From contig JAGDMU010000014.1 in NCBI GenBank assembly GCA_017860615.1, positions 1 through 64,000 of the forward strand: a stretch of 64,000 nucleotides of DNA. Reading direction: 5' to 3'. Under the pieces are notes generated by a model. That model saw only the letters and a program-made list of their open reading frames with translations, had not been told where the DNA came from and searched no databases. Positions 36,043 through 62,791 of the stretch are shown piece after piece. The translations under genes and the position numbers were made by a program. The stretch is from Pseudomonadota bacterium. GTDB taxonomy: Bacteria; Campylobacterota; Campylobacteria; Campylobacterales; Sulfurospirillaceae. The stretch's first letter is position 1, and every line of letters starts with the position of its first letter.

Positions 36043-36166
36043 AGGCATAAATTTTCTATATTATACATTTTGTAAAATAATCATTAAAATAGCCTATTTT
36101 AGGCATTAAGAAAACTTTCTCAATTTCCAATAATATGTTATTATTCCAATAAAATATAAATTTATG

Positions 36167-36183: not shown

Positions 36184-36251
36184 TAAATCCAATTAAAGAT
36201 CAAAAAAAACTGCTAAAATAATTTATATTATATCGTTTCTAGAGGTGAGCA

Positions 36252-37699: not shown

Positions 37700-37708
37700 G
37701 GTTATAAA

Positions 37709-38809: not shown

Positions 38810-38815
38810 AATCAT

Positions 38816-41005: not shown

Positions 41006-41017
41006 TGGTATGAATCC

Positions 41018-42100: not shown

Positions 42101-42134
42101 TTACTTCTCATTTTCTTGTCTCATATGCTTGCAT

Positions 42135-42178
42135 GATACAATAATTTTTATAAAATGATACACTAATTGTATAAAATA
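42135..42178. repeat. Tandem repeat in the AAA-subtilase promoter
   Basis: Two adjacent copies of about 22 bp sharing GATACA-x-TAATT and TATAAAAT (one-base gap), 34 bases before the AAA+ ATG. Possible operator for the HTH at the end of the AAA+ protein. Confidence 0.5.
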
Positions 42179-42335
42179 GAAATAAAAAATGGGGAAAAAA
42201 TTACAAATGAAGCATTTTTTACATAATATGACACATTTAATATGAAACAATGATTCAAAATATACATTTGTTTAATAAAAAAGATTTTGTAGGGTATATC
42301 ATGAAAATATAAAATACTTTATTGCACGAGAGTTT

Positions 42336-43538: not shown

Positions 43539-43642
43539 TAATTTCCTTTATGTTGATTAAATATATTATATTATTTCATAATATTGAATGCAAGGTGATA
43601 TCGTAGAAAATAGATTTATGATATTGCAATAAAAAGGTCGAT

Positions 43643-44428: not shown

Positions 44429-44490
44429 TCTTTCACTAGTTTTTTGCGAAGTAGTATGAGTCGAATAAAATTTAATAAAGGTCAGTTAAG

Positions 44491-45588: not shown

Positions 45589-45624
45589 TATCGAGATTTA
45601 GATTGTTATTGTTAAGGAATAAAT

Positions 45625-46311: not shown

Positions 46312-47153
46312 TATATCCATGTAAAGATGATTGCATCAAACTCCTCAATAAATACCAGGACAAATTAACACCAGATCAGTATCGAAATATAGAAGCTACG
46401 ATAGGCAATCATGCTTTCGAGGGGATGTTTGCAGATAAATATGATATTGATAGATTGGTACGTATGGCAAAAAATGATTTATCCTATGAAGAAGCACGTA
46501 TTGAGGCTATTGCAGAGATCAAAAGCATACGTGCGCAGATCCAGGATAAGAATACAGAACTACCACTCTTTGATCAAGAACTATTAGGCTCGAATAAAGT
46601 TGAGGCCATAAACTTAGAAGATTTATTTTTGAAAGAACAAAAGCTAACCCTTATTGCAGAATTATCGATAAGGAATAAGCCGGTTATGGGGATTTTCGAT
46701 TTTAACTACCTCCAGGCTATTCATAAACGCCTTTTTGATGATGTCTATACGTTTGCCGGAAAAGGTCGTTTTGAGATGGGATATCCTGGTGTATTTGTCA
46801 AAGGTGAGACACGCTTCACACCTGGGATCAAATTACCAGAAGTATCCAAAGCTCTTTTTGATGCGCTTCAAGATGATAAGTTTTTTGTGAATTTGGATCA
46901 TAAAGAATTTGCTCAAGAAATGGCGATCTTCTTTAATGGGTTAAACTTGCTGCATCCATTCCGTGAGGGAAATGGACGAACGCAGCGTTTATTCATGGAA
47001 AGTGTTGCTCAAAATGCCGGTTACGTTTTATCACTCCATCAAGTCTCTCAAGAGGCAATGATCAGAGCGTGTCAAAACGCTGATAAAGGGTTTATCAATA
47101 GCCTCGAGATACTTATGCGGCATCATCTTGAGCCGATAGAAAACAAGCGATAG
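46308..47153 (+). CDS. Fic protein with built-in VbhA-like antitoxin segment
   Basis: 281 residues. The Fic core has the full active loop HPFREGNGRTQRLF and the flap region VYTFAGKGRFEMG. The first 60 residues look like the VbhA antitoxin helix bundle: IGNHAFEGMF carries the inhibitory Glu-Gly (normally S/T-x3-E-G; here Asn takes the S/T place), followed by KNDLSYEEARIEAI. So this AMP-transferase should be held off by its own amino terminus. It is coupled to the UDG-like gene by ATGA. Confidence 0.82.
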   Translation: MIYPCKDDCIKLLNKYQDKLTPDQYRNIEATIGNHAFEGMFADKYDIDRLVRMAKNDLSYEEARIEAIAEIKSIRAQIQDKNTELPLFDQELLGSNKVEAINLEDLFLKEQKLTLIAELSIRNKPVMGIFDFNYLQAIHKRLFDDVYTFAGKGRFEMGYPGVFVKGETRFTPGIKLPEVSKALFDALQDDKFFVNLDHKEFAQEMAIFFNGLNLLHPFREGNGRTQRLFMESVAQNAGYVLSLHQVSQEAMIRACQNADKGFINSLEILMRHHLEPIENKR

Positions 47154-47379
47154 AAGCTAAGGAATGAATGCTCTCGAGTGAATGAGTGAAAATACCAAGA
47201 GCATAGCCATAAAGGATCATTATAATGATCAACCACCGCACCTCTTAAACCCACCGATGAAAAAACCGTGCCGGTATTTTTCACAGTGTTTGTAACCCGG
47301 TGCTATCTCCGGATCAGATCGATGGTCATTAAAAAAGATAATAATGTAATAAATTTAGACTACGTAAGTTAGATAAGAA

Positions 47380-50268
47380 TTATTGTAATTTAAATTTGAC
47401 ATTAATAGATTTTTCTATAGTTTCAATACAAGATTTTTGAATTTTCCAAAATTCTTGTGATGCAATTGATTTAGAAGTATGATTCTCTTGCAAAATAGTA
47501 AATTGCTTTGTATTGTTATTAAGAAGAACTGGAGAGCTTTTAGCCCATGCCTCTTGCGCATATTTATAAAAATAATATGCAGACTCTTTCGTGTTTGATT
47601 CAATGAGAACTTGCCCAATCCAAAATGCAGCATAACCTAAATTAATAAGCCTATTTGTTATATCATTAGTAAAAATATAGTAAAACGACTTGTAATAGCA
47701 GATAAGGGCTTCATCTTTCATATTTTTTAAATATAAGCATTTACCAATATTACCATGTTGTGCGCCACCGCCATCTTTTAAAATTATATTTTTATCAATG
47801 ATCGTATCCAAAGTATTATTCAATAAAAACAATGTAAGTGCTTTATCTATATTTTCAATTGTCCCAGTATCTCTAAGTGCTAATGCTTGATTATGTTTAA
47901 TATCAAATTTATCTTCTTGTTCACCTCTATCAAGTAAATATATAATTTGTTCAGAGATATTTATTGCGTTGTCATATTCTTTCCTAAACCAAAAAAGGTA
48001 ACATTTTGTTGCACAAAGCCGAAAGTATGATTCTCCTTTACTCTCCAAGATTTCTTCATATTTGGCAATTAACTCATCAGCATAATCAGATTCTCCATAT
48101 TCAACAAAATATTTTATTGATGAATTTAAGAGTACATCAAATTGGAGGTAGGTTTCGATTTTTTTCTTAGACCAAGTAATAGAATTAAAAAAAAGTTTTA
48201 CTACTCGTAAATATTCTTCAATAAATCCTGCCGCTGTCATACTAGATGAAATTTCTAGTAGTGTATTGAGTGCACTTTGATAATCACCAGCATTAATTGA
48301 TAATTCAGTTTTATTAGTAAAATTTAAAAATTCATCAAAACTCGTTGTATAGTTTAATTTATTCTTCAAAATGACAATAAATTTATCATAATATTGTATG
48401 AAGAGTGTAATATATTTATTCCTTTCAGATGTTGGATAATTAGTTCTAATAAATTCTTTGACTAAAGGATGTAATTCAATATAAGTCGTGTCTCTTTTTT
48501 CAATAATTAAGTTTAGGTTATATAAAGACTTGAGAGCTTTTTGAAATTTGTTATAGTTTAACTCATTGCTCATAATATCAGCATAATCTTCTTTTGTTTC
48601 AGGAACAATAGCTTCTGCTAATGTTCGTAGCACAAGCCTTTCTCTATCTTGTAATAATTCCCATATTCGTCCAAGTAGCTTCTTAGCAAGAATTGAAGAA
48701 TCATCTCTCTCCAGATTATGACCAGTTTCTATTTTTAACAAAAAGTCTTTTAAAGAATCTTCTCCCTTTCTAGATTGTGCTAAAATCAAACTTAGCCATA
48801 AAGCATGACCATGTGTAAAATTATAGGCTTGAATTGCATATTTTGTTAACTTTTCTTTATTAATTGTTGTATTCCCTTGTAAAAAATACTGTATGGTGTC
48901 AGATTCACTCAAGCCTTCTAATTTTAATTGATGAAAATCGACGCCTGCATACCGAATAAATGGTCTACATGTGAAAATAAATTTTGATTTATGATCATAT
49001 TTTATGGCTGCATGAAAGAACTTACCAATACCACCAATAGGTTCGAAGTATTCCAAATCTATATAGCTATCAACATTGTCTAAAACAAAAATTGTCTTTT
49101 GAGTTCCTAAATATTTAAAAAATAACGCAATTAATTCTTCTTCACTAAATCCAACAATCTCAGATAAATTAATCGAGGGTTCAACTCTTTTTATCATTGA
49201 ATATATTTTTAGTATAAACTTGTGCTCTTCTTCTTTAAAATCTTTCCAATCGATAATTGAGTAATTATTTTCATTATTTATATAATGAGAAGCTAGTGCA
49301 GATTTGCCTTCACCACCTATACCAGTAATAAAAAAAACTTTAAATGCCTCAGATTGTAAGAGAGAAAGTTCTTTTTCTCGACCTATCCAATTAGATACAG
49401 ATGGGGCAATATCACTGCCGTCATCTTTATGTTGAAAATTCATTGATTCTCGACTAGATTCTGATAAGTTTTTAGAAGTATTAGTTATTGTGTTGGTATT
49501 GTCTAAAGCTATTACTTTTAGTTCATTCAAAAAAGAAGGAAGATGACTATAATTTTCTAATGTTATCTGGGTAAGATGGTTATTCTTTACATCGTGTGTA
49601 TTTACTAAAAAATGTTTTGGTCCATATCCATCCATTAGTGAATTTATATAGTTAAAAAGCTCTTCAACATAGGGATCTTTAAATGAAAAACCTATAAATA
49701 AAAAAGAATATTGAGAAAGCAATTTTTGAAATTGAAATTTTGCTAGATTATCATTACGATATAACATCTCATATTGCTCTTTAAAGATAATACAGTGATC
49801 TGGTTCTGTGATATCACCATGTATTTTTAAAATAAAACTATCAATATCATTAATTGTTGATAATTTAAAATTGCTAGACTGCGTCATTATGTTTGCAATT
49901 TCACAATTCTTCTCAAGTAATTGATCATAATTAGTAGTAATAAAACGTTTTGATATTTTAGTTATTGTTTGATGTATAAGTGATTCTGTATGGGTAATAT
50001 TGCAATCATTCTCAAAAGATTCTAGAATGAGCTTTTTTTCATGTTTCAAGTTATCTAAAATATCTAAAGGTGTCATAATTTCAGACTCTAAAGCATTTAG
50101 CCAAGCATCTGCTTTTTCAATATAGCCCTTTTTATTAATTAATAAATTTTTAACAATTGTATGCCAAGAAGGCAAACCATGATTAATTGATAATCCTGAT
50201 CCAACAAATATAATTAATTGGTTTTGTTTAATGGCATCATGTAGGGCTTGGGGAATAGTATATGACAT
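47380..50268 (-). CDS. SIR2-STAND defence protein, Avs5-like architecture
   Basis: 962 residues. The amino 250 residues are a SIR2-like NADase domain: LIIFVGSGLS at 18-27, RFITTNYDQLLE, ILKIHGDITEPD and FLFIGFSFKDPYVEEL. The middle is a STAND/NB-ARC ATPase with Walker A FFITGIGGEGKSALA, Walker B KTIFVLDNVD and the FIFTCRP strand. From about 600 on come TPR-like helical repeats that would sense a phage product. Binding should trigger NAD+ depletion and abortive infection, as known for SIR2-STAND (AVAST type V) proteins. A single gene with its own promoter region. Confidence 0.88.
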   Translation of the reverse strand: MSYTIPQALHDAIKQNQLIIFVGSGLSINHGLPSWHTIVKNLLINKKGYIEKADAWLNALESEIMTPLDILDNLKHEKKLILESFENDCNITHTESLIHQTITKISKRFITTNYDQLLEKNCEIANIMTQSSNFKLSTINDIDSFILKIHGDITEPDHCIIFKEQYEMLYRNDNLAKFQFQKLLSQYSFLFIGFSFKDPYVEELFNYINSLMDGYGPKHFLVNTHDVKNNHLTQITLENYSHLPSFLNELKVIALDNTNTITNTSKNLSESSRESMNFQHKDDGSDIAPSVSNWIGREKELSLLQSEAFKVFFITGIGGEGKSALASHYINNENNYSIIDWKDFKEEEHKFILKIYSMIKRVEPSINLSEIVGFSEEELIALFFKYLGTQKTIFVLDNVDSYIDLEYFEPIGGIGKFFHAAIKYDHKSKFIFTCRPFIRYAGVDFHQLKLEGLSESDTIQYFLQGNTTINKEKLTKYAIQAYNFTHGHALWLSLILAQSRKGEDSLKDFLLKIETGHNLERDDSSILAKKLLGRIWELLQDRERLVLRTLAEAIVPETKEDYADIMSNELNYNKFQKALKSLYNLNLIIEKRDTTYIELHPLVKEFIRTNYPTSERNKYITLFIQYYDKFIVILKNKLNYTTSFDEFLNFTNKTELSINAGDYQSALNTLLEISSSMTAAGFIEEYLRVVKLFFNSITWSKKKIETYLQFDVLLNSSIKYFVEYGESDYADELIAKYEEILESKGESYFRLCATKCYLFWFRKEYDNAINISEQIIYLLDRGEQEDKFDIKHNQALALRDTGTIENIDKALTLFLLNNTLDTIIDKNIILKDGGGAQHGNIGKCLYLKNMKDEALICYYKSFYYIFTNDITNRLINLGYAAFWIGQVLIESNTKESAYYFYKYAQEAWAKSSPVLLNNNTKQFTILQENHTSKSIASQEFWKIQKSCIETIEKSINVKFKLQ

Positions 50269-50433
50269 TAATAAATATCCTTTATGTCCAATCTTGGTTA
50301 TGATTATAGCATTACTTAATATAACTATAAGACCTCTATAAAATTAAAAAATAACACTTGTTTTTCATATTTTGGTATAAATAATTTACAATTGATCTAA
50401 GTCCATTTAAAAAATCTCTTTTTGAGAGAAAAA

Positions 50434-50490
50434 GACTTATACAACTTTGTATATTATGCAGATTTGTATAGTAACAAGTTTGTATAAGTC
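50434..50490. repeat. Inverted and direct TTGTATA repeats upstream of the SIR2-STAND gene
   Basis: GACTTATACAA (50434-50444) and TTGTATAAGTC (50480-50490) are perfect inverted copies, with two more TTGTATA words between them. Candidate regulatory site in the 258-base gap before the SIR2-STAND gene, or a terminator for the upstream membrane gene. Confidence 0.5.
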
Positions 50491-50526
50491 GAATGTTCTA
50501 TTTTAAGAAAATTCAATAGTATCTAT

Positions 50527-51042
50527 TTATTTAAGTGTAAGATCAACACCTAAAAGGTTACTAAAACCCGTGTAAGCTCTGATCTCTTTACGCCAATTTT
50601 TTTCTAAAATAGATCTTTTGCTATTTTGATCCGAGCAGCTAGCGTAATGTGTTACTCCCATCGCCACATTGAAAATAAAACCACTTACAATACCACCAAA
50701 GAATAAAATTAAAATAATTAAGCCTTGCACATATTGATTTTTAGGTTTTAAAAGCATGGTATTAAACTTGTGAGAGAGATAAACGCTAATTGCCATCATT
50801 ACGGCAATAAATAAAGCAAAGATAATCATAGTAATAAAAATGTTTGAGTCTACTGTCCCAAGACCAAAATAGCCATCTGCACCAGGACATCGAAATCCAC
50901 TCGTAAGATCAAAAAACAAAGGATCAGGGTAAAAGGATATAAAAGGGATAGCAAAAAGGCCAAAGGCAAAAATGAGTTTTAATGTTGACGAAATCAATTT
51001 TGTTTTACTGTTCGGCATTATAAATTCATTCAGTTTTGTCAT
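50527..51042 (-). CDS. Small membrane protein, third gene of the HTH operon
   Basis: 171 residues with three predicted helices (LKLIFAFGLFAIPFISFY; IFITMIIFALFIAVMMAI; GLIILILFFGGIVSGFIF) and an extracytoplasmic loop with two Cys. Not recognised. It starts right after the stop of the preceding gene (TAAATG), so expression is coupled. Confidence 0.6.
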   Translation of the reverse strand: MTKLNEFIMPNSKTKLISSTLKLIFAFGLFAIPFISFYPDPLFFDLTSGFRCPGADGYFGLGTVDSNIFITMIIFALFIAVMMAISVYLSHKFNTMLLKPKNQYVQGLIILILFFGGIVSGFIFNVAMGVTHYASCSDQNSKRSILEKNWRKEIRAYTGFSNLLGVDLTLK

Positions 51043-51480
51043 TTATATAAAAAAATATATGCATATAGCTGAATAGATGGTAAGAAACAAAATCATTTGT
51101 TTGACGGTAAAATCAGTTTTCCATTTTCTATAAGCTTTCTCGAGCATATAAATGCAAATAAATACTACGAACGTTGTGAGCATTAAAAAATACCACCTAT
51201 ACTCAAATGTCGTAATGACCCATTTCGGCTTAAAAAGTTCAACTAAAAAAAGTGTAAAAACAAGTGCTATCCATCCCCATAGAATTATTTTTGCATGCAA
51301 GGATACGAAGAAAGATGAAAGATACTTATGATTATCGTCATCTGCAAGACAAGATATTTTTGGGATAGTATAATTATTTACTGTGTCAACATTTGCATGA
51401 AATGCTACACCAGTAGTGTGATCGTGTAGGGTTGCGCTGCTAAAGTTATTATTGACTACTTGATTAGGTCGATCGGACAT
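51043..51480 (-). CDS. Small membrane protein with an N-terminal Asn-rich tail
   Basis: 145 residues, three predicted helices after about residue 60. The amino tail QVVNNNFSSATLHDHTTGV resembles a stretch in the HTH protein upstream (NNFQNSTLSGNATGV). AAAGGAATAAAA precedes the ATG. No known family. The shared tail suggests that the two proteins may associate. Confidence 0.6.
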   Translation of the reverse strand: MSDRPNQVVNNNFSSATLHDHTTGVAFHANVDTVNNYTIPKISCLADDDNHKYLSSFFVSLHAKIILWGWIALVFTLFLVELFKPKWVITTFEYRWYFLMLTTFVVFICIYMLEKAYRKWKTDFTVKQMILFLTIYSAICIYFFI

Positions 51481-51482
51481 TT

Positions 51483-51914
51483 TTATTCCTTTGATTGAAT
51501 CATTTGAAATAACAAAGTATGTAGTTTGTTTTGATCATCTTGATATTTTTTGCATAGTTCTTTGAAAAGAGTTTTTGCAAAATCATCGCATGGCAAGAGG
51601 TCACCTTCTTGATTCGCAGATAATGATATTTTATTGGATGACCCAATTTCAACACCAGTTGCATTCCCTGACAAAGTTGAATTTTGAAAATTATTTATTT
51701 GAGAATGATCATTTGTGAATAGTATTGATAAAATCTCTGGATTTTCTTCTGCTACCTTTTCTACTAATGCACCAATAGCATTTCGACTTCTCCATCCACT
51801 AATAGTTGATTGTGTTGTTGATAATTTTTCAGCAAGTTCAGTGATAGTCTTAATATTGTAATGTTTAATAAGTTTTTGAATTAATATCTCAATATTCAAT
51901 ATATATCCTTTCAT
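51483..51914 (-). CDS. Repressor-like HTH protein, likely master regulator of the element
   Basis: 143 residues. The amino part is a CI/XRE-type helix-turn-helix (TITELAEKLSTTQSTISGWRSRNAIG). A linker with NNFQNSTLSGNATGVEIG follows, then a helical tail. It is divergent from the replisome organiser gene, with a consensus promoter and AT-rich repeats between, the standard lysogeny-switch layout. The ATG at 51914 lacks a ribosome site; the TTG at 51899 has AAAGGA six bases before it and is probably the real start. Confidence 0.75.
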   Translation of the reverse strand: MKGYILNIEILIQKLIKHYNIKTITELAEKLSTTQSTISGWRSRNAIGALVEKVAEENPEILSILFTNDHSQINNFQNSTLSGNATGVEIGSSNKISLSANQEGDLLPCDDFAKTLFKELCKKYQDDQNKLHTLLFQMIQSKE

Positions 51915-51939
51915 TTAATTATATATTTCAATATTATTC

Positions 51940-51968
51940 TTGACAAGTATTTAATTATGAGATAAAAT
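51940..51968 (+). promoter_or_regulatory. Consensus sigma-70 promoter for the replication/transfer genes
   Basis: TTGACA, exactly 17 bases, then TAAAAT. It points towards the replisome organiser and lies 26 bases from the divergent repressor gene, a place where the repressor could act. Confidence 0.75.
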
Positions 51969-52213
51969 ACAATTTAAAATATTGATAATATATTAAAATA
52001 TTCGTTATTTTATCAAAAAGCTATCTAAAATACAAAAATATGGAGGAAAATAAGTCTAGGAGTAAATTATTTATAAAACATTTTCCCTATCAACGACCAA
52101 GCAGCTAGGGAAAACGAACACCGTTCTGAGTTGAGGGTGTGGTCTGCAATTCTACCACAAATCCCTCTAATTGTTAAAAATTCAAAATTTGAAAAATACA
52201 CAAAGGGATATCT
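51969..52213 (+). other. Structured 245-base leader before the replisome organiser gene
   Basis: It holds a direct repeat TTAAAATATT (twice, about 20 bases apart), a 9-bp stem-loop TTTTCCCTA / TAGGGAAAA at 52081-52114, and a 6-bp stem-loop TGTGGT / ACCACA at 52138-52159. Could be an untranslated leader, a small RNA or an origin of replication. No gene seen in it. Confidence 0.45.
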
Positions 52214-52999
52214 ATGGCCAAAAAATACTACTGGTTAAAGCTACCGAGTAACTTCTTCGTGGATCCAAAAATCAAGAAGCTTCGCAAAATTGCAGGTGGC
52301 GATACATACGTGATTATCTTTCTAAAAATGATGCTGCTTGTGATTAATACCAACGGCATTCTTGAATTTGAGGGCATCGAAAAAACGTTGGAAGATGAGT
52401 TGTCTTTAAAACTTGATGAGGATGAGAATAACGTAAAAGTTGTCTTAGCCTTTTTAAGTTCAAACGGAGAGCTAGAGGAAGTTTCTGATGAAGCTTTTTT
52501 ATTGCAACGTGTGCCTGATCTAGTGGGCAAAGAAGGTGATAGTGCCGAACGTGTAAGACGTTTAAGGGATAAGAAAAAAGTCGAATTGTTACATTGTAAC
52601 GACATAGTAACAGAGTGTAACGATGATGTAACACAGAGAAAGAGAAAGATAGAAGATATAGAGAAAGATATAAAGCCCTCTCTCTTACTCTCTCCCTCTC
52701 CTCAAAGATCAACGCTTGATCTAAAAAGTATTAAAAGCTTTAGAGAGCAACTTTCTAATTTATGCCCTACTTTGGAATTTAGCTTATGTGGCAAATTGGG
52801 GTACTCCAATGAGCATAAAGGCTTTTGTTTAAAAAGCGGTTATATCTATAGTCTTCAAACAAAACAATTGGTTGATCGAAATGAAAGCTTTGAAATCTGG
52901 CAACACCTCTTCCAGCAAAAAAATGAAATCTTTAAGTATGTAAACACACAAATCCAAAACCAAAATAAGGAAGAAAACTATGCAAACAACAATCAGTGA
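52214..52999 (+). CDS. Phage-type replisome organiser (DnaD-like N-terminal domain)
   Basis: 261 residues. The amino 110 residues match the phage replisome organiser domain (YYWLKLPSNFFVDPKIKKLR, GGDTYVIIFLKMMLL, VKVVLAFLSSNGEL), a winged-helix initiator that loads helicase at an origin. The middle is a charged linker with serine-proline repeats and the end is unassigned. AAAGGGATATCT precedes the ATG. It suggests that the excised element replicates. The next gene overlaps it by 20 bases. Confidence 0.8.
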   Translation: MAKKYYWLKLPSNFFVDPKIKKLRKIAGGDTYVIIFLKMMLLVINTNGILEFEGIEKTLEDELSLKLDEDENNVKVVLAFLSSNGELEEVSDEAFLLQRVPDLVGKEGDSAERVRRLRDKKKVELLHCNDIVTECNDDVTQRKRKIEDIEKDIKPSLLLSPSPQRSTLDLKSIKSFREQLSNLCPTLEFSLCGKLGYSNEHKGFCLKSGYIYSLQTKQLVDRNESFEIWQHLFQQKNEIFKYVNTQIQNQNKEENYANNNQ

Positions 53000-53243
53000 A
53001 AATGCGGCAAAAATTCTTGAGGAACTGAACTCAAACCCTGTTTTTAAAAAGCTTATTTGCCTAAATCAAAAGCAAGCGGCCGAAGCAATCGGCATTAGCT
53101 CAACGACTTTAAGTTTATTGCGCCGCGATGGTTTGGGGCCACAATTTATCAAGGTGCAACAGAGAGGTAAGCGAGCTAGAGTCCTTTATACAAAGTTAGA
53201 ACTAGCAGAATGGCTTTCTCGTAGCACCATCAAAACCATGTAA
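52980..53243 (+). CDS. Small HTH protein, AlpA/excisionase type
   Basis: 87 residues. LNQKQAAEAIGISSTTLSLLRRDGLGPQFIKV followed by RVLYTKLELAEWL is the HTH_17 layout (helix-turn-helix plus wing) of excisionases and AlpA-like regulators. AAGGAAGAAAACT gives a ribosome site inside the preceding gene. May direct excision or switch on transfer genes. Confidence 0.78.
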   Translation: MQTTISENAAKILEELNSNPVFKKLICLNQKQAAEAIGISSTTLSLLRRDGLGPQFIKVQQRGKRARVLYTKLELAEWLSRSTIKTM

Positions 53244-53253
53244 GAGGTGTGTT

Positions 53254-53685
53254 ATGAAACATGAAGATACAGATATTCTAAAGCGGCTACAGGCTCTTGA
53301 GAGCAAACTTGAGAGGCTGACGAGAGAGGAAATGTCATCAAATCTTTTTTTCGAATTTCGCTTTCTTTTTCAGGGTGAGCAGATCCTAACCGGCATTGTT
53401 GATACTACGGCTTGCGATGGAATTATCAAAAAAAAGTTTAGTCTTTTAAAAGCTCAATATGCGCTTACTCGAAAAATCAAAGAACGCGCGGAGTTTGTCG
53501 TGTGCTTAGCTAGCAAAAATGATCGTGTGAGCATAAGTGAATTTTTCATTACGGGCGAAAGTTTTATGAAAATCACTGGTTTTGTGCCGAACGTCGAAGA
53601 ATTTTTTGAGTTTGACAAATCATATAAAGTGTATTGTGAATCGCTTGATCAAGGTGAAAAAAGGAGTGAACAATGCGCTTCTTAG
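53254..53685 (+). CDS. Hypothetical protein of the transfer operon
   Basis: 143 residues. A short amino coiled coil (DILKRLQALESKLERLTREEM) and a compact mixed domain follow; not recognised. It ends 13 bases into the VirB6/DotA-like gene, so it belongs to the same operon. Confidence 0.6.
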   Translation: MKHEDTDILKRLQALESKLERLTREEMSSNLFFEFRFLFQGEQILTGIVDTTACDGIIKKKFSLLKAQYALTRKIKERAEFVVCLASKNDRVSISEFFITGESFMKITGFVPNVEEFFEFDKSYKVYCESLDQGEKRSEQCAS

Positions 53686-55797
53686 TATTGTTTGTATTTC
53701 CTTTTTTTCTTTTTGCTGATGTTGCAAGTGAAAAGGATACTTTAGCAAGTTCCCTTTTCGAATCCAATGATGCGACCGTTAGCGGATCATGTAGCTATGG
53801 ATGCCGAGCCGTTGCGTCGGGTTATGTGACTCAAATCGTCGATATTGACGCTAAGAGCGGCACAACACAATGTGAAGTGTATAGCGTCCCAGGAACAAAA
53901 CAATCGTACACCGGATCAATACAACGGCCAATTAGTAAGCTCCAACACGGAGAGCAGCTACAAACTAGCCGGTGCGACATACGATACCGGTACAATCACG
54001 TTCTCGAGATTTTTAGCCGGTATGTGTACGCTAGACCCTGATATTATCAACTTTAACACAACGAGTTCAACGGGTATTTTAAGCCTTAAAAATCCTGGAT
54101 CAATTTACGGTACAAATGTATCTACATTAAATGCGTCCAAAGATAAAGAGCTTGTCGCAAGTGCGGATAGTTTAAACAAATCCAATTTAGCTTATTTCGC
54201 AAATCTTTTTTCCAATATGTCAACGATTTATAGTTATCTTCAAAACCTCTTATTTGCGTTTGTATCCGCTTTCTTCGTGGTAATGATTGGCTCTCAAAAA
54301 CTTCAAGCGTATTTAGAAAATAAGCCAAGTAATATAAGCTATTTGAGTAAGCTCTATGTGCCGATTATTGCCGTTGCTTTTTTCTACGTGCCAATTCCTC
54401 AAGAGAATAATATGCACAGCTCCATTATGCAAAATATTATTCGTAATTTTATGGGTACGAGTACAAAAATCGCTGATAAAGCGGCCGTATTGGGTGCAAA
54501 TGTTTATTTACAAAAACTTTACTCAAGTGTTGGAGCTAATTCAATGCAAGGTGAAGCAACGATCTATTCAATCAGAGATAGCGCAAAAGCTCAAGCGGCA
54601 TTTTACAATACGGCACTAGGTGAATGTAAAAGTCGCTTTCCTGATGCGATGACATTCCAGGTGAGCGATGGTGATTTAGCACAAAAAAATGTCTATAACT
54701 ATAACGGAGTTAAAGAGGGAGTAACTGCTCAAGGGTGTCGTGCGATTGAGCGAAAATGGCTTGTGCAATCTAAAGTGTATAAGCAATACTTGGCATATTC
54801 TAATCAAGTTAAAAGTAGTTTTTCTAATAATAAATTGCAAGGTAAGCTCGCACAGGTCAACACATATTTAAATAACCGCCAAACAGAGCTCGGATGGGTC
54901 AATTCGATTTTAATGCCAAGTGCTGCTATAACTATTCAGCTCATGCCTTTAGTTCAAGAGGCTGTTGAACAAGCCCAAATATCAGCAGGCGATAATGAGA
55001 AAAAAATAAATGATAGCTATAAAGAGGATGAAGATAAGAGCTTTTGGCAAACAATCAAAGAAAGAGGTCAAAATTACATAGGACAGCTTGTTGGAAAGGT
55101 TGCCTATATGGTTTTGCCAGGCTCAAATGCGATTTATGAATTTGGTCGTGATGCAATTAAAGCCGGAGCTGACATCTTTGGTTCTGTCCTAGCTCTTTCC
55201 GGAGTAGTTGGTGGCGCAGCAGTCTCTTTGGCAGTCAATAATGGTGGAGCGCAAATCGGTGGGTTAATTTTTACTGCTACTGTTTTAGATTATATTTTAG
55301 ATTTTTTACCACTTCTCGCAAGTGTCGTAGCCGGTATCTTAGCGATTTTAGGATGGATTATTGAACTCACAAAGTATTTTTACGTTACGCCATTTGTCGT
55401 TGCATTCGCTGTCACCATGCGTCGTGTCGACAAAATGGTTGAGTTTTTAGTAACGGGAATAGCTCTATTTTTTAAACCGACATTATTGGTTATTTTTGCA
55501 TTTTTAGGGCTTTTTTTATATTGGCTAGGCAAAGATGTCTTTTTAGCATTTGGATATGAGCAATTTAACCTTTTAAGTAGCATGAATGAGGGATTTATAG
55601 TTTCTATGCTTTTAAATATTGTTGTTGTTTTATTGAAGATGGTTTCTTCTATTGCTTCAACCTTTTTTTTATGGAAGCTCATACTCACTGGCCCATCGTA
55701 CACCATGCGCTTAATCGGCATAGATCGTGCCGGTGAGTATACCAATCTAATCCAAGCAGCAGCACAAAAACTAGATCAATACAGTGTTAAATTGTAG
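53673..55797 (+). pseudogene. VirB6/DotA-like type IV secretion membrane protein, split by a frameshift
   Basis: A signal peptide (MRFLVLFVFPFFLFA) starts at 53673 behind AAAAGGAG, but the frame breaks at 54041. From about 53905 the continuation is in the next frame and runs to 55797. Removing one A from the AAAA at 53897-53900 joins them as VPGTNNRTPDQYNGQLV. The only start in the long frame is an unlikely TTG at 53845. The product, about 705 residues, has a periplasmic amino part, two central helices, a long hydrophilic loop, and five or six helices in the last 250 residues, like VirB6, TrbL or DotA/TraY. It may be broken, or the extra A may be a sequencing error. Confidence 0.7.
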
Positions 55798-55835
55798 TAA
55801 TTCTATTTTTGATTTAGACATTAAAGGAGAGAAAA

Positions 55836-56237
55836 ATGAAACCAGAAACAGCAGAACAAATATATCAATTTTTTGAGGAAGCACAAATTGTCCTGGCGAC
55901 GCTAGAGGATCATATCGCGGCATTTAATCGTGCCTCGAAAGTCTTTGAAAAAACGACGAGCGATTTTGCAAAAGTCGAAAAGAGCATCGATGGGATTGGT
56001 ACGCTAGTCGCCGAGAAAATTCAAGTAAAAACTATTCAAGCCTATTTATTAGGCTCGGTGGCAGAGCTTGAAAGTGTCACGAAAGATCTAAAAAGGCGTA
56101 AGCATGAAGAACGTTCCACGTTGAAGATTGTTTTTGCTGCAACGTGCCTTTCCGCACTTGCAACAAGCATCATTTTTATAGCGTTTGAAGCGGCCAATAA
56201 ACCGCTTTTCAATCTTATTTATCAACTTGTTCATTAA
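55836..56237 (+). CDS. Coiled-coil protein with a C-terminal membrane anchor
   Basis: 133 residues. The first 95 are helical and charged with heptad patterns (FEEAQIVLATLEDHIAAFNR, VEKSIDGIGTLV); one membrane helix comes near the end (FAATCLSALATSIIFIAFEA). AAAGGAGAGAAAA precedes the ATG. The layout recalls small anchors in conjugation operons but no family is recognised. It stands ten bases before parA. Confidence 0.6.
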   Translation: MKPETAEQIYQFFEEAQIVLATLEDHIAAFNRASKVFEKTTSDFAKVEKSIDGIGTLVAEKIQVKTIQAYLLGSVAELESVTKDLKRRKHEERSTLKIVFAATCLSALATSIIFIAFEAANKPLFNLIYQLVH

Positions 56238-56247
56238 GGAGAACACC

Positions 56248-57027
56248 ATGAAAAATATCGCAATTATTAATACCAAAGGTGGCGTAGGAAAAAGCACCCT
56301 CGCCTTTCACGTTTTACCGGCTATTTTAGCGGATAGAAATTTTTCGATTCTAGAAATCGACAATAATAATACAACAACAACGGCGTTTTCAAATACACAA
56401 ATCTTGAAAGGAAAAATTACCTCGGTAAATATCGACGAAGGTATGCAAAAATTGGAAGAGCTTGTTATTAATAATATGTTGGATGGGGACAAGATCAGCG
56501 TGATTGATGCCGGTGGTGGTGATGACTCACTCAGAGTGATCCATTCGTTTATCGACCAAGATTTGATCGCAGACACGTTATTTCTCATCCCTTTTATGCC
56601 TGATTTCGTGCAGCTTAAAAATCTGGTTGATACGTATAACGTTTTACCAAGTGAGGCGAAAATCCTGGTGGTCTTAAACAATGCGGATATCAGTGATCCT
56701 GATCATCTTATGTTCGTTAAGGGTAACGAGGACTTTGAGATACCGGATATCTCATCTACGTTTAAACACTTTGCTGTTTGCCCTAAAAGCCCACTTTTTT
56801 CTTATGCCGCTTCACGCAATAAAGAGACGATCAAAGATCTTGCCCTACTCGCAACCCAATACAACCAAAAAGAGATCCTAGATTACGCGAAGATAAAAAC
56901 CAAAGGTGATAAAGACAAGATGACCAAGATTTACCGCAATTGGAAGATTTCACGCAATGCAAAAGCATACCTCGAGAGTGAAGCGATCGCGCAGCTCAAA
57001 AGCATCATTCTGGGAGAGCAAGCATGA
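56248..57027 (+). CDS. ParA/MinD-type ATPase
   Basis: 259 residues. The start is set at 56248 (GGAGAACACC before the ATG); the frame is open 63 bases further up but inside the previous gene. Deviant Walker A KGGVGKSTLA, Walker A' region SVIDAGGGDD, and switch strand LEIDNNNTT. ParA proteins move or position DNA by forming ATP-bound patches on the nucleoid or by pairing with a centromere-binding protein. The next gene, a small HTH protein overlapping by four bases, and the phased repeat array after it complete a partition-like set. Confidence 0.83.
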   Translation: MKNIAIINTKGGVGKSTLAFHVLPAILADRNFSILEIDNNNTTTTAFSNTQILKGKITSVNIDEGMQKLEELVINNMLDGDKISVIDAGGGDDSLRVIHSFIDQDLIADTLFLIPFMPDFVQLKNLVDTYNVLPSEAKILVVLNNADISDPDHLMFVKGNEDFEIPDISSTFKHFAVCPKSPLFSYAASRNKETIKDLALLATQYNQKEILDYAKIKTKGDKDKMTKIYRNWKISRNAKAYLESEAIAQLKSIILGEQA

Positions 57028-57296
57028 AGTACGAAGATTGGATTGCTAAGAACACGCCGTTAAAGCGTGTCTCTTCCCTAGAGCCATACAGAGACGAAAT
57101 TCAAAAGCTTGTGAGTTTGAATTACACGCATAATCAGATCGCTGATTATTTACAAGAAGTAAGAGGCCTTGAGATATCAAGGCAGCAAGTTCAGAAGTTT
57201 CTCTCGAAAAAAACAACCAAAGAAAAAGCGGTGCAAGCTGAAAAAGGTGAAATACCGAAAGTGAGTTTAGAGGATAAGTTCAAAGGATACCTCTAG
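57024..57296 (+). CDS. Small HTH protein, candidate centromere-binding partner of ParA
   Basis: 90 residues, basic. YTHNQIADYLQEVRGLEISRQQVQKFLSKK is a helix-turn-helix of the phage-terminase/KfrA-like type; both flanks are charged. It overlaps the parA stop (ATGA) and ends 17 bases before the heptamer array, the usual place for a centromere-binding protein or relaxosome accessory protein to act. Binding to the array is inference. Confidence 0.7.
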   Translation: MKYEDWIAKNTPLKRVSSLEPYRDEIQKLVSLNYTHNQIADYLQEVRGLEISRQQVQKFLSKKTTKEKAVQAEKGEIPKVSLEDKFKGYL

Positions 57297-57313
57297 GGCA
57301 AAAAGATAGGTAA

Positions 57314-57424
57314 TGCAACCTCGTGCCACCGTAATGCTACCGAAAGCAATCGTATGCAACCACTTGCTACTCAATGCTATCAAAAAGCTACCGTGTGCCA
57401 CCAAAGAGCCACTCAAAGGCAACC
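57314..57424. repeat. Helically phased array of eleven heptamers
   Basis: Copies begin at 57314, 57324, 57335, 57345, 57355, 57365, 57375, 57386, 57396, 57407 and 57418. The first ten fit WGCNAYY (for example TGCAACC, TGCCACC, TGCTACC, AGCTACC); the last is GGCAACC. Steps are 10 or 11 bases, mean 10.4, the helical repeat of B-DNA, so every copy faces the same side. Spacers are not conserved. Reads as a multi-site protein platform such as parC/stbDR centromeres. Confidence 0.9.
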
Positions 57425-57435
57425 GAGAAAACATT

Positions 57436-57461
57436 CACACCCAACGCCACGTTAATGGCAC
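57436..57461 (-). other. Candidate origin of transfer with F-like nick region
   Basis: On the minus strand a hairpin (GCCA-TTAACG-TGGC, 57459 to 57446, extendable by two G-T pairs) is followed by GTTGGGTGT and then GAATG. The F plasmid nick region reads GTGGGGTGT^GGTGC after its hairpin. Spacing from hairpin to the presumed nick (between 57437 and 57436) is 9 bases. The MobF relaxase gene starts 56 bases away. Nicking here would send the parA side first and the relaxase gene last. Confidence 0.6.
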
Positions 57462-57492
57462 GAGGTGAAAAAAAGACGAAAAAGAGGCAAAA

Positions 57493-60348
57493 ATGCTTTC
57501 AATTGCAAATATGAATAGCGCACAAGCAGCTCATTATCATGCGAAAGATCAAAACTATTATCAGCAAGATAAAGAGACAAGCGTTTGGGCTGGCAAAGGT
57601 GCTGAACGTTTAGGCTTGAGTGGTGAGACTGATATTAAACAGTTTGAGCGATTGTGTTACGGTATTCACCCAAGCGAAGAACGCACTCTTGTTGATATTA
57701 GTGAAAGAGCGGGCACGGATCTAACCTTTTCCGCTCCAAAATCCGCATCGATCTTATGTGAATTAGGTGATGAACGTACCAATCAACTCATACGTGCAGC
57801 ACATGATCAAGCGGTGCAAACCACACTGGCATTTGTTGAAGATCATTATGCTCAAACAAGAGAACAAAAGGACGGGCATAGAGAAGCAATTTCTACTGGT
57901 AATCTCATCATCGCTAAATTTCAGCACGATAGCAGTAGAGAGAACGATCCGTCATTGCATACGCATTGCTTTATCGTCAATGCAACGCAAAAAGAGAGCG
58001 GAGAATGGCGAGCGTTACACAATGATCAGCTCTTTACTCACAAGATGTTTCTAGGCCAGACGTATCGCAATGAATTGGCCAAAAATCTTAGAGAGCAAGG
58101 ATTCACGATTGAGGTAACAAATGCCAAAGAGGGATTCTTTGAAATTAAAGGCGTTTCCAAAGAGTTGCTCCGTGAATTTTCACAACGTCGTGAGCAAGTC
58201 CTCGAGAAATACGAGGAGTTAAAAAAGCAATATCCTGGTCTCGAGGAAGAGAAGCTCAAGGAAATGGCTACAACCGGTAGCCGAAGCGTCAAAGATAAAA
58301 ATGCTGATCGCAGTGTCATCAAATCTAACAATATCGAAAGAGCCAAAAACATTCTATCCGGTAAAGATTTAACTTATCTCAATCAGCTGAATAGTTCGCC
58401 GCTACATCCAGAACAGCAAAAATTAACGGCTAAAGATGCGGTAGATCTTTCGATTCGTATTCAAAGCGAAAAGACGAGTGTGTTTAATCGTGAAGATGTG
58501 ATGAAAAACGCAATGAAGCTTTCGCTAGGTGAGCATTCACTTAATGCTATGCAGAGTGCTTTTGATGATCATGTCAATGAGCGATCGATTGTGCAACTGG
58601 ATCAAAATGCTTACTCTACACCGGAGCTCTTACAAAAGGAGTTTGAGATTGTTGAAATGGCAAAAAACCGCACAGATCCTTTAATCTCTGCACAACACGT
58701 GGAGGAGTATCTAAGCCATACGCCTTATAGCCTCACAAAAGGACAACAAGAAGCGTATACACACATTCTCACAAGCAATGAGTCTATTTCAGTGATCCAG
58801 GGCGATGCCGGCACGGGTAAAACGTTTATGCTTAAAGCCGTGAGAGAAACGCTCGAGAGTCAAAAGCAAAGTAGCATTATAAGAGGGCTCGCTTTTACCG
58901 GGAGAGCCAGTGAAGAACTTGAGCGTGAAAGCGGTATCCCCTCTACGACATTGCACGCTTTTTTTGTCAATCCACCGGCAGAAAAGAATATGGTTTATAT
59001 CGTAGATGAGGCTTCAATGGTCAGTTCGTTACAGATGCACCACTTATGTGAGATTGCTAAAGAAAACCATTCAAAAATTGTGTTTATCGGTGATCAAAAG
59101 CAATTCCAATCTCTAGGCGCTGGCAATATGTTCTCGCAGCTTCAAAAGCAAAGTGATATCCGTATCGTTGAGATGACAGAAAATAAACGTGCACAAACAG
59201 AATTGATGCGATCGCTGTATTCATCCATCAAGAGCAAGGATTTAGAAGAGGCGTTTGGCATTTTAGAAAAGCATCAACGACTTCATGAAACAACGGATCT
59301 CGAGAAGATAAAAAACGAATATCTCAAAGATCGTCATGATACGTTGCTTCTTGTGGATACGAACGCAAATCGTAGAGCTTTAAACGAGTTAATCCGAGCG
59401 GATCTCGTCGCCCAAAAGGAAGTCACACAGTCTCAACCATTATCTATCAAAGAGGCAATCAATCTAAACGAGATTGAAAAACACTACTCGAGTAATTATC
59501 AAGTAGGTCAAATTGTTGTCGCGCAAAACGCGTTTCAAGGATTTAGTGCTGGGCAAGAAGGGATGATCACCGCGATTGATCATCCATCCAATACGATCAC
59601 TGTTACCAAAGATGAGCAACGGATCAACATTGATCTAAGTAAAGCTCACGCTCAAGCAATACAAACCTTTGCTATCAAAGAAAAAGCATTTGGTGTCGGA
59701 GACAAGATCGTTTTTACAAAAAACAATCGAAATCTTAAGTTTAGAAATGGCGAGGTTGCTGTGATCCAAGCGATTTATGGGAATATCATCAAAGTGCAAA
59801 AGGGAAATAAAGAGTTAGCGTTTGATGCTTCCAAGTATCCCTATATCGATCATGGATACGTCATTACAGCACATAAAAGCCAGGGGCAAACGACCAGTAG
59901 GGTTATCGCTTTCACGAATGCACAAATGGCCAATTTAAACCGCTTCTACGTGCAAATTACCAGGGCAAAACGTGATGCCTTAATCTATACCAACAGCATA
60001 GCAACACTCAAGGAGAATACACAAAAAACGCAAATTAAAACCAGTACCCTAGATTATTTTAGGTCGGCAATGCAGCATGAGGCACATACAAATCACAATT
60101 ACAAAAGGACATTCAATGAGCAAAAAGAACGAAGAATATCAAGAGGATCAACTCTTTCAATACTGGGAGACTATTGCACAAAGCTCAAAATTGCATTCGC
60201 AGATCTTAGCCGACATTTTGGCGTATTTAAAAGAGCTCGACGAGAGATTGAAAGCACTCGAGGCAAAGATCAAATGAAAAATATCTTACTTAAAAATGAG
60301 CGCGAAAAAGCAGCTCAATCCATAACACAATCACGAGAAAGGAGATAG
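57493..60348 (+). CDS. MobF (TrwC/TraI-type) relaxase-helicase
   Basis: 951 residues. The amino end matches TrwC: MLSIANMNSAQAAHYHAK with the catalytic Tyr candidates at 15, 22 and 23, then WAGKGAERLGLSGE. The HUH metal site is SLHTHCFIVN. The helicase part has Walker A GDAGTGKTFM, Walker B VYIVDEASM, ITAHKSQGQT and VQITRAKRDALIYT (RecD2-like SF1). It nicks oriT, stays bound to the 5' end and unwinds the strand for transfer. AAAAGAGGCAAAA precedes the ATG. The tail overlaps a small ORF. Confidence 0.93.
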   Translation: MLSIANMNSAQAAHYHAKDQNYYQQDKETSVWAGKGAERLGLSGETDIKQFERLCYGIHPSEERTLVDISERAGTDLTFSAPKSASILCELGDERTNQLIRAAHDQAVQTTLAFVEDHYAQTREQKDGHREAISTGNLIIAKFQHDSSRENDPSLHTHCFIVNATQKESGEWRALHNDQLFTHKMFLGQTYRNELAKNLREQGFTIEVTNAKEGFFEIKGVSKELLREFSQRREQVLEKYEELKKQYPGLEEEKLKEMATTGSRSVKDKNADRSVIKSNNIERAKNILSGKDLTYLNQLNSSPLHPEQQKLTAKDAVDLSIRIQSEKTSVFNREDVMKNAMKLSLGEHSLNAMQSAFDDHVNERSIVQLDQNAYSTPELLQKEFEIVEMAKNRTDPLISAQHVEEYLSHTPYSLTKGQQEAYTHILTSNESISVIQGDAGTGKTFMLKAVRETLESQKQSSIIRGLAFTGRASEELERESGIPSTTLHAFFVNPPAEKNMVYIVDEASMVSSLQMHHLCEIAKENHSKIVFIGDQKQFQSLGAGNMFSQLQKQSDIRIVEMTENKRAQTELMRSLYSSIKSKDLEEAFGILEKHQRLHETTDLEKIKNEYLKDRHDTLLLVDTNANRRALNELIRADLVAQKEVTQSQPLSIKEAINLNEIEKHYSSNYQVGQIVVAQNAFQGFSAGQEGMITAIDHPSNTITVTKDEQRINIDLSKAHAQAIQTFAIKEKAFGVGDKIVFTKNNRNLKFRNGEVAVIQAIYGNIIKVQKGNKELAFDASKYPYIDHGYVITAHKSQGQTTSRVIAFTNAQMANLNRFYVQITRAKRDALIYTNSIATLKENTQKTQIKTSTLDYFRSAMQHEAHTNHNYKRTFNEQKERRISRGSTLSILGDYCTKLKIAFADLSRHFGVFKRARREIESTRGKDQMKNILLKNEREKAAQSITQSRERR
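60116..60277 (+). CDS. Possible small coiled-coil protein overlapping the relaxase tail
   Basis: 53 residues in a frame different from the relaxase, starting at an ATG with AAAAGGA eight bases upstream. The sequence is amphipathic with clean heptads (ILADILAYLKELDERLKALE), more protein-like than a chance shadow. The relaxase frame across the same bases is also open and charged. Either both are made or the relaxase tail is poorly constrained. No homologue known to me. Confidence 0.35.
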   Translation: MSKKNEEYQEDQLFQYWETIAQSSKLHSQILADILAYLKELDERLKALEAKIK

Positions 60349-60350
60349 TA

Positions 60351-61922
60351 ATGTCAACGATTTTATTATGTTTATTGTTTAATGCCGGTGCTTTATGGGT
60401 GTTTCAAAAGAACCTTCCAATACCAGGCGGCGCAGTCTTTGTGCTACTTTGTATTATGGAGTATCTTGCATGGGCATTTATTTTCAAAAGACAAGAATCG
60501 ATCAATGGTCGTATCTTTGATGATAAAGCGTGGGTGATGGGAAGTTATCCCAATTACTATGAGCAAACGGAAGGCAATCGATGGACGGCTTCAAAGCGTG
60601 TCAAAGAAATTATGTCTAAAGGAGAATTGTTCCTGGATCAGTTTCGGTTTGATCGTAGCGTTTTATATCGTTTGTCGCCAGTCTATGGATTGGCTAGTAA
60701 ATTTAATGATTTTGACTGTTATGCGGATCCAGTAGATTTTACGCAGTCAGGAATTATATTTGGTGGTATGGGATCAGGTAAAACAGAATTTTATCACTCC
60801 CTTATCGCACAAGATAAGTTCGATCGTGTAGTCGCGTATGATACCAAAGGCGATCTTGTGCAAAAGCATTATAGTGTGTTGAAAGATATTATCTTAAATC
60901 CGTATGATCAACGAAGCCATATTTGGAATCCTTTCGAGGAGGCTAAGACGAGTCCTTTTGTGACAGAAATTTTCTTAACCAATCTTTTCAATGCGTTAAG
61001 TGGCACACAAAAAGACTTTTTTAGCGCAAGTTCCAAACAACGATATATGAAGCTTTTTAACGATATTCTTTATAACAACAGTGAGCTTTCATCGAATGAG
61101 CAGTTTGATCTTTTTATTCAACAGCTCAAGGAGTATTTCAAAGAAAATCAAGATCATGAAAGACGTAGTGAAGCGGATGTCGCCAGTACAATGCATTTGA
61201 CGTTTGAATTTTTTGACTATATGAATTTTTGTATTCAAAACGGTAGCCCTACTTTTACGATTAAAGAGTATCTCTCTCGTAAGAGCTGCAAGCTCTTCTT
61301 ACTCTCGAGGGATGATCAACGCTCAAAACTTACCCCGTTTTTTACCGGCTTTTTGGCTGCCATGACGGCCGTCATGTTAAGCCAAGAAGATCAAAAAACC
61401 TCTCTCACTCTCTTTGCTCTTGATGAGTACCTCTCTTTTGCTCAAAACCTCGATAGTGAAACGATCGAGGGGTTACATACCAGGATCAGAAGTAAAGGCG
61501 GTTGTTTGCTTCCAGGTGTGCAATATTTCCCAGAGCAAAGTAACAAGGCAGACAGTGCTCAAGGTATTACGCAAAAAATGTTAAACTCAGCAGCTTATTG
61601 GTTTTTATTTCAAGGTGTGGATGAATATACACTCAAAAAGATCAATAGTACGATTGGTAAAGTACGTTATAGAAAAGAGCAGATTAGAGAGCAACTTGTT
61701 GCGGATCCGTTGAATCGTAAAAATTACCAAATTGAAGAATCGGATCTGCTAAATACCAGTTTGTTTCAATCATTAGGTCAAAATTACGAGCATATTACGT
61801 TTGTACCGTCGAAACAAATTTTGTATAAAGGGTATACGCCAAGAGCGGAATTACCGATTAGAAAAGAAAATTATCTTCAAAGTGAGAATATCGAAAAATA
61901 CTATCGGGAGGTACGGGTATAG
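60351..61922 (+). CDS. VirD4/TraD-type conjugative coupling protein
   Basis: 523 residues. Two amino membrane helices (ILLCLLFNAGALWVF; AVFVLLCIMEYLAWAFIF), Walker A IIFGGMGSGKTEFYH near residue 140, DTKGDLVQKHY after it, and Walker B LTLFALDEYLSF near 360 with GGCLLPGVQYF following. A hexameric ATPase that passes the relaxosome to the mating pore. The gene starts two bases after the relaxase stop. With relaxase but no pore ATPase, it fits a mobilizable element. Confidence 0.88.
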   Translation: MSTILLCLLFNAGALWVFQKNLPIPGGAVFVLLCIMEYLAWAFIFKRQESINGRIFDDKAWVMGSYPNYYEQTEGNRWTASKRVKEIMSKGELFLDQFRFDRSVLYRLSPVYGLASKFNDFDCYADPVDFTQSGIIFGGMGSGKTEFYHSLIAQDKFDRVVAYDTKGDLVQKHYSVLKDIILNPYDQRSHIWNPFEEAKTSPFVTEIFLTNLFNALSGTQKDFFSASSKQRYMKLFNDILYNNSELSSNEQFDLFIQQLKEYFKENQDHERRSEADVASTMHLTFEFFDYMNFCIQNGSPTFTIKEYLSRKSCKLFLLSRDDQRSKLTPFFTGFLAAMTAVMLSQEDQKTSLTLFALDEYLSFAQNLDSETIEGLHTRIRSKGGCLLPGVQYFPEQSNKADSAQGITQKMLNSAAYWFLFQGVDEYTLKKINSTIGKVRYRKEQIREQLVADPLNRKNYQIEESDLLNTSLFQSLGQNYEHITFVPSKQILYKGYTPRAELPIRKENYLQSENIEKYYREVRV

Positions 61923-61951
61923 CTTCAAGATAGGGGAAATTCCCCTATCTT

Positions 61952-62236
61952 TTAAACAAGAGCAATCGTTAGTTTTTTGCCTAGAGCTTGGCTAGCTGAA
62001 ATTAATGTTGTAAGCGTTAATGATTCGTTTGAGGGGCTTAATAATCGATCAACCGCAGCCCTACTTGTGTGCATCATTTGTGCCAGTTTTGTTTTAGAAA
62101 TTTTTTGAACTTTCATTTCTTGTTCTAATTGATAAGCAATGACTCTTTTAATAGCGGCATCATTAACTTCTTCATAGATACCTTCGTCTCTCAAAAATTC
62201 ATCAAAATCACTTCTCATATTTGGTTGTAGTTTCAT
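61952..62236 (-). CDS. higA: HigA-type XRE antitoxin
   Basis: 94 residues. Helix-turn-helix KISKTKLAQMMHTSRAAVDRLL with the family tail TLISASQALGKKLTIAL. It overlaps the toxin gene by four bases and follows it, the toxin-first order of HigBA modules. It should bind HigB and repress the promoter at about 62570-62600. Confidence 0.87.
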   Translation of the reverse strand: MKLQPNMRSDFDEFLRDEGIYEEVNDAAIKRVIAYQLEQEMKVQKISKTKLAQMMHTSRAAVDRLLSPSNESLTLTTLISASQALGKKLTIALV

Positions 62237-62568
62237 TTTATATCCTTTAATCTACTTAAAGCTAAATCAAGATCGCTTTTTTCTGTCTTTTGCGTTTTTT
62301 TAATAAACGCATGCAGCAGTACCATGTATTCGTCGATAACAGCGAATATAACTCTTGCAATTCTTTTGTCTGATATATTGCTTCTCACTTCAAAAAGCTT
62401 TTTACCGAGACCCTTACATGTAGGCATACCTATTGGCCATCCATACTCTACCGTTTTAATATCCTCGCCAATGATTTTTCGATCATCTTTGGCAAGAGAT
62501 AATAGCCACTCTCTCACGGGTTTGTTTCCGTTACTTGTTTCATAAAATATCGAAGTGATTTTTTTCAT
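62233..62568 (-). CDS. higB: HigB/Gp49-like toxin, RelE superfamily
   Basis: 111 residues. Shows FYETSNGNKPVREWLLSL, the Gp49 signature, then GKKLFEVRSNISDKRIARVIFAV and MVLLHAFIKKTQKT with the basic residues that cut mRNA on the ribosome. Last gene before the right att site, it would help keep the element. Confidence 0.88.
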   Translation of the reverse strand: MKKITSIFYETSNGNKPVREWLLSLAKDDRKIIGEDIKTVEYGWPIGMPTCKGLGKKLFEVRSNISDKRIARVIFAVIDEYMVLLHAFIKKTQKTEKSDLDLALSRLKDIK

Positions 62569-62675
62569 AGTAAAATTGTATCAAAAATGGTACACAAAGG
62601 TCAATAGGTGAATTAGTCATTAATAGATTGCAATGGATTTTTTAAGAGAAATATTGAATTACTAGATAGGTTTTA

Positions 62676-62692
62676 TTGGAAATAGGTTGGAA
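62676..62692. repeat. Integrase arm-type site, right end
   Basis: TTGGAAATAGGTTGGAA, identical and in the same orientation as 36167-36183, 75 bases inside the right att. Confidence 0.6.
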
Positions 62693-62767
62693 AGAAGCTT
62701 TTTTGATTTTTCTTAAATTGCTTTAGAATGTCGATAAAATGGGAGTTTTGAAGGAGTTTAAGGATTG

Positions 62768-62791
62768 GTGGCCGGGAGAGAGGGATTTGAA
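62768..62791. repeat. Right attachment site, within tRNA-Ser(TGA)
   Basis: 24 bases identical to 36019-36042, covering the 3' end of the tRNA including the encoded CCA; integration rebuilt the tRNA here. Confidence 0.88.

Follow-up and report, generated by a model that had tools for sequence, protein, structure and literature searches.

What is the role of eleven copies of a heptamer that recur every 10 or 11 bp in front of a relaxase gene, and which protein would read them? The row lies in the window, by which we mean the whole 64,000-nucleotide stretch of DNA that was analysed, on an integrated element of a Sulfurospirillum host whose MobF relaxase is 95% identical to its S. diekertiae counterpart. 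The relevant features of the element are:

36019..62791, no strand: integrated element of 26.8 kb, with a 24-bp direct repeat at each end
36019-36042 and 62768-62791: the 24-bp direct repeats (attachment sites), which match the 3′ end of tRNA-Ser(TGA)
37709-38809: tyrosine recombinase of the element
52214..52999, + strand: replisome-organizer/DnaD-like helicase-loader protein of the element
56248..57027, + strand: ParA/StbB/TraL-like ATPase with the P-loop KGGVGKS, its gene overlapping the HTH gene by 4 bp
57024..57296, + strand: 90-aa HTH protein, StbA/TraK-like, the proposed ligand of the array
57314..57424, + strand: the array, eleven heptamers WGCNAYY (the last being GGCAACC) at steps of 10,11,10,10,10,10,11,10,11,11
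57493..60348, + strand: MobF (TrwC-type) relaxase-helicase (TrwC E 5.5e-86)
60351..61922, + strand: type IV coupling protein, TrwB-like

The array is situated in a 196-bp gap, with the genes of the ParA-like ATPase and the HTH protein upstream and the MobF relaxase gene downstream; the ORF list of the window holds no ORF of at least 60 aa in 57297-57492, and a terminator search found none. Because no VirB4-type gene was detected, with neither PF03135 nor PF19044 matched anywhere in the genome, the element is probably an integrative mobilizable element (IME) and not a self-transmissible ICE. Elsewhere on the element, a protein of 962 aa that combines SIR2-like and NB-ARC domains (47380-50268, − strand) represents defence-like cargo, and a subtilase (S8) beside an AAA ATPase (38816-42100, − strand) forms a pair reminiscent of defence cargo, with Fic, HNH, TumE-like and UDG-like genes nearby. 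The element ends with an HTH and Gp49/RelE-like pair (61952-62568, − strand), probably a toxin-antitoxin module, and a 650-aa ORF in the replication/transfer segment (53845-55797, + strand) has no Pfam or PHROGs match.

All eleven heptamers and all steps listed in the earlier note were re-found at their positions, and its mean step of 10.4 was recomputed as 10.40. Columns G2, C3 and A5 of the heptamer are invariant and positions 6-7 are C or T; the spacers had been described as variable, correctly, since the remaining columns of the array hold only 0.06-0.6 bits. The array is far above chance. Ten WGCNAYY matches fall within its 111 bp, against at most three (+ strand) or four (− strand) per 111 bp in the rest of the window and at most five per 111 bp in 300 Markov sequences of 64 kb each. 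Single-base Fourier power at periods of 9.8-11.4 was dropped as a test of the array because it failed to discriminate, and a motif-and-step detector was used instead, which presupposes no motif and scores in bits any 7-bp motif recurring at 10/11-bp steps. By this measure the array reaches 58 bits, whereas dinucleotide shuffles reach at most 11 and the second-best place in the 64-kb window 17. The detector also flagged a few other repeats in the 424 kb scanned, for example near the R46 replication-initiator gene, so that a high score is by itself no proof of an StbA-type site.

The two genes directly upstream suggest which kind of system the array belongs to. The family HMM of the ATPase matched StbB of R388 (6e-21), StbB of R46 (2e-17) and TraL (8e-14) far better than IncC ParA (1e-4), and the protein matched NCBIfam StbB at E 9e-8, under the curated cut-off; by sequence it is of the StbB/TraL type, nearer StbB than generic plasmid ParA. 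The 90-aa protein is predicted to be a helical HTH protein, and its relationships are more distant. Its profile aligned with the HTH region of R388 StbA at a weak 10.2 bits, and hhalign against the same protein gave a probability of 78 and E 1.8e-5, the latter for one single comparison. A single-sequence structure model (mean pLDDT 68.5) overlapped 7pc1, the StbA DNA-binding domain, with Z 4.4 and rmsd 2.9 over 54 residues, at rank 19; this unspecific overlap is compatible with an StbA-type DNA-binding domain. Foldseek searches with the model returned nothing at E <= 0.001, a PDB sequence search with alignment A1 gave no meaningful match, and PHROGs and NCBIfam hold no family for the protein. 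No relative was found in viral contigs, for which alignment A1 is too diverse a query.

Between the array and the relaxase gene, the bottom strand carries a small hairpin, GCCATTAACGTGGC, followed by GTTGGGTGT/GAATG (the slash marking the putative nick), which gives two further features:

57446..57459, − strand: oriT hairpin GCCAcgttaaTGGC, adjoining the predicted nic
57436..57437, − strand: predicted nic, bottom strand 5′-GGGTGT/GAATG-3′, 12 bp past the last heptamer

Folding of the hairpin strand gave z -2.26 relative to shuffles, 3 of 200 of which folded equally well. In sequence and fold, the locus has the layout of a MobF oriT, that is, a hairpin, then a putative nic, near the relaxase gene; the R388 oriT is arranged alike, with a hairpin and then TATTGTCT/ATAGCC, and ten relatives have a hairpin and an ACC-containing site placed in the same way. 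The predicted nic sequence also resembles the F nic region. Judged from these likenesses, 57436/57437 is probably the nic. If so, the array is on the oriT's leading side and would pass into the recipient ahead of all other DNA. Neither the position of the nic nor the conservation of step order and nic distance described below figured in the earlier note.

We then compared the locus with its relatives. A total of 399 genomes of the order were searched and the flanks fetched, and 23 MobF loci proved comparable over ~4-5 kb upstream of the relaxase. Arrays with different motifs occupy the same place: TGTAACC (G015 and G020), TGTGAAC (G029), ATTGAAC (G019), an AATGTCC-like motif (G010), TTGCAA (G243), GTTATTA (G014), AAAGAAC (G365), AGCTCAC (G211), TGTCAAA in four copies (G007) and ATAGCAA (G003, another contig of which has a second, weaker array), with exact 11-bp rows directly after the HTH gene in G150 and G345. 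In the G243 array (locus L052, 4893-5030) many TTGCAA motifs double as parts of short inverted repeats. Every MobF locus with an array also has genes for a ParA-like protein and for a 90-aa protein homologue. An array was present in 14/14 loci with the HTH gene and in 0/9 without it (Fisher 1.2e-6), or in 12/14 and 0/9 at a strict cut (score >=25; Fisher 6.7e-5); these counts serve as guides only, being not fully independent owing to shared ancestry of the MobF loci and to short contigs (the negatives G145 and G220). The cleanest negatives, G351 and G386, retain the relaxase, hairpin and nic-like site and have neither HTH gene nor array. Loci that keep relaxase and parA with the motif lost, which the earlier note had said would refute its reading, were sought; the array-less MobF loci are also without a relaxase-adjacent HTH gene.

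In three genomes (G065, G026 and G133) the relaxase gene is 6-17 kb away from an HTH homologue that has an array of its own, so that here too the array is linked with the HTH gene rather than the relaxase. The strongest array found, at 107 bits, is that of G065 (locus L012, 1218-1405), with 18 TCAAGAA-type copies at 10/11-bp steps beside the HTH homologue and a ParA gene; its contig also carries a MobF relaxase, at a distance of ~16 kb. In a class-wide profile search of 397 genomes, the best phased score lay at most 400 bp from the HTH homologue in 19 of 25 cases with E <= 1e-9 (p 0.002). Strong arrays in G010, G211 and G365 are ~0.85 kb from the HTH gene because parA sits between the two. Homologues with E > 1e-9 showed no significant proximity tendency, and several remote ones have weak or no arrays. 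The MobC-adjacent HTH homologues on plasmids of Salmonella, Citrobacter and Paraburkholderia have arrays as well.

Divergence within the MobF loci points in the same direction. Relative to the window, G020 and G015 are 87-89% identical in parA, 92-93% at the relaxase start and 94-100% in the nic region (92-100% for these last two taken together), whereas identity falls to 73-81% in the HTH gene and 61% in the array. In G023 and G012, which carry the array type of the window, identity is 91-99% for array and HTH gene alike (91-96% for the HTH gene). Since the two change jointly while the sequence around them stays ~90-100% identical, they look cognate. The link to the 90-residue protein proposed in the earlier note is thereby strengthened, both by this co-divergence and by the way arrays track the HTH gene over the 23 MobF loci. 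Three same-type relatives differ from the window at seven array positions, five of them in spacer or N columns; of the other two, one is a C-to-T change that the motif allows and one breaks an invariant G, numbers too small to test. Distance and step order are kept where the motif is not: the start of the last repeat lies 18-21 bp from the putative nic in 9/11 loci (16 and 9 bp in the other two, values that hinge on which register the detector picked). Of the steps in the two positions next to the nic, 17/20 measure 11 bp (near-duplicate G015 left out; permutation p 5e-5). Some of this conserved geometry may be inherited from a shared ancestor, with few indels since. Even so, the spacing has outlived the motif: the layout persists, whereas motif and reader shift in step.

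We consider it probable, with good confidence, that the array serves as the platform to which the 90-residue HTH protein binds, within the leading side of the oriT of the IME. The HTH protein would act as the StbA/TraK-type partner of the StbB/TraL-type ParA ATPase, with one HTH domain per heptamer. As steps of 10-11 bp put the copies on one face of the helix, bound protein would cover ~110 bp starting 12 bp from the putative nic and probably bend this DNA or wrap it, and at so short a distance the array may act directly on the relaxosome. The complex could then serve both as a relaxosome accessory and as a handle, comparable to a centromere, that the ParA ATPase would use, so that transfer and the stable inheritance of the excised element are coupled; control of the downstream relaxase operon may be a further function. 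That the protein binds and wraps the array and affects nicking or segregation is what we infer from these comparisons, and by analogy the array would be the handle by which HTH protein and ATPase balance inheritance of the circle against transfer. The earlier note had proposed a protein filament or multimer platform for segregation and/or relaxosome control; of this, the link to segregation and relaxosome control gains support from the tracking of the HTH gene, the co-divergence, the StbB-type ATPase and the probable nic alongside.

How far does the evidence distinguish this platform from other uses of phased repeats? The array might mainly be a parS-like centromere for ParA segregation of the excised, replicating element, its nearness to the nic being incidental, a possibility that we take seriously without favouring it. 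The ParA-like ATPase is encoded in the same operon, the replisome-organizer gene suggests that the circle replicates, the R388 repeats (stbDRs) are required for stability (PMC3098194), and the three genomes whose relaxase gene is 6-17 kb distant from HTH gene and array fit such a site; a free-standing centromere, however, would need neither the 18-21 bp to the nic nor the 11-bp nic-proximal steps, part of which descent may explain. We doubt that the HTH protein uses the array as an operator to repress the operon of relaxase and coupling protein. It does lie in the gap before the relaxase gene, and R388 StbA represses several promoters (PMC3937220), but no sigma-70-like promoter was found in the gap, the single match falling within the relaxase gene, and eleven phased copies exceed the usual operator. 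An operator role would in any case be compatible with a binding platform at the oriT.

Readings that dispense with a dedicated protein fare worse. As the repeats are direct, the element has a replication gene and the spacers are A-rich, one might think of replication iterons or intrinsically curved DNA, but the information sits in the motif columns, there is hardly any A-tract of at least 4, and whether a locus has an array depends on the HTH gene and not on the relaxase, all of which makes this very unlikely. That the array consists of functionless, decayed tandem repeats is scarcely credible: tandem duplication is able to yield 10-11 bp repeats, but the spacers vary, 10- and 11-bp steps are mixed, and phasing is kept across loci with unlike motifs. 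Loss of phasing in HTH-bearing relatives was not seen among the MobF loci, which further disfavours decay.

Taking the binding platform as the preferred reading, we suggest, tentatively and as a possibility we hold short of belief, that such arrays are widespread as nucleoprotein scaffolds built into the oriT, whose geometry is fixed (constant nic distance, and 11-bp steps near the nic followed by mostly 10-bp ones), in which motif and reader would co-evolve freely as the private 'key' of each element and which would replace TraY/TrwA-type accessories. Isolated cases (R388, R46, NAH7 and R721) turn into a testable rule, namely that an StbA-like HTH protein predicts a phased row beside the oriT, whatever its motif. 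This rule helps to locate transfer origins and cognate sites in elements without a studied relative. The window and G020/G015 offer natural diverged protein/array pairs in near-identical backbones, with which to dissect recognition, incompatibility and how segregation is coupled to conjugation.

Among known systems, R1 parC has phased repeats bound by a small protein. The analogy with R1 parC and ParR drawn in the earlier note is not supported, as ParMRC combines an actin-like ParM with a ribbon-helix-helix ParR, neither of which was found here, where the ATPase is a Walker ParA and the DNA binder an HTH protein. RP4 (IncP) has TraL, which is ParA-like with a KGGxxK-type P-loop, and its TraK, according to work cited in PMC3098194, binds the nic-traK region; the gene order of TraK/TraL is reversed, however, and the relaxase is MOBP. 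The detector found no clear array in the traJ-traK gap of the IncP plasmid pBS228 (13.9 versus 11.9). PMC3098194 attributes the class of P-loop seen in the window, KGGVGKS, to MOBP plasmids. MOBP/MPF_I plasmids of Salmonella and Citrobacter, such as pB72C, have an HTH and TraL-like operon next to MobC, with an HTH protein 32% identical to ours. Counted from the MobC side, the steps of pB72C (11,11,10,11,10,10,10,10) follow the order seen here from the putative nic; it differs in its GCA-core motif, its MOBP relaxase and an array upstream of the HTH gene.

The nearest likeness is to R388, where StbA binds the repeats, lowers transfer and is needed for stability, and StbB is needed for transfer (PMC3098194). 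The detector recovered the R388 stbDRs and matching rows in R46, R721 and NAH7. All four share with the window phased direct repeats by the oriT, on its leading side, and an HTH DNA-binding protein with a StbB-type ParA ATPase; R388, R46 and NAH7 also have a MobF relaxase. The analogy with StbA and the stbDRs made in the earlier note holds up, as the ATPase matches StbB above generic ParA and the array abuts the probable nic. That note had also set the motif apart from known ones; it does differ from that of R388, but this carries little weight, since motifs vary between elements anyway. The rows of the four plasmids step almost strictly by 11 bp and adjoin the stbA start, against a mean of 10.4 bp here, and the R388 repeats begin ~115 bp from the nic, compared with 12 bp from the predicted nic. 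R388 has two sets of five stbDRs (PMC3098194), here replaced by a single row of eleven, which lies downstream of the HTH gene and not upstream as the R388-type repeats do of stbA. The gene order is ParA, HTH, array, relaxase in place of stbA-stbB-stbC, and no stbC was recognised among the window genes. The array is a real, non-random variant of the StbA-type oriT/segregation site; that type of site was already known, and what is new and of interest is a conserved geometry with a drifting motif.
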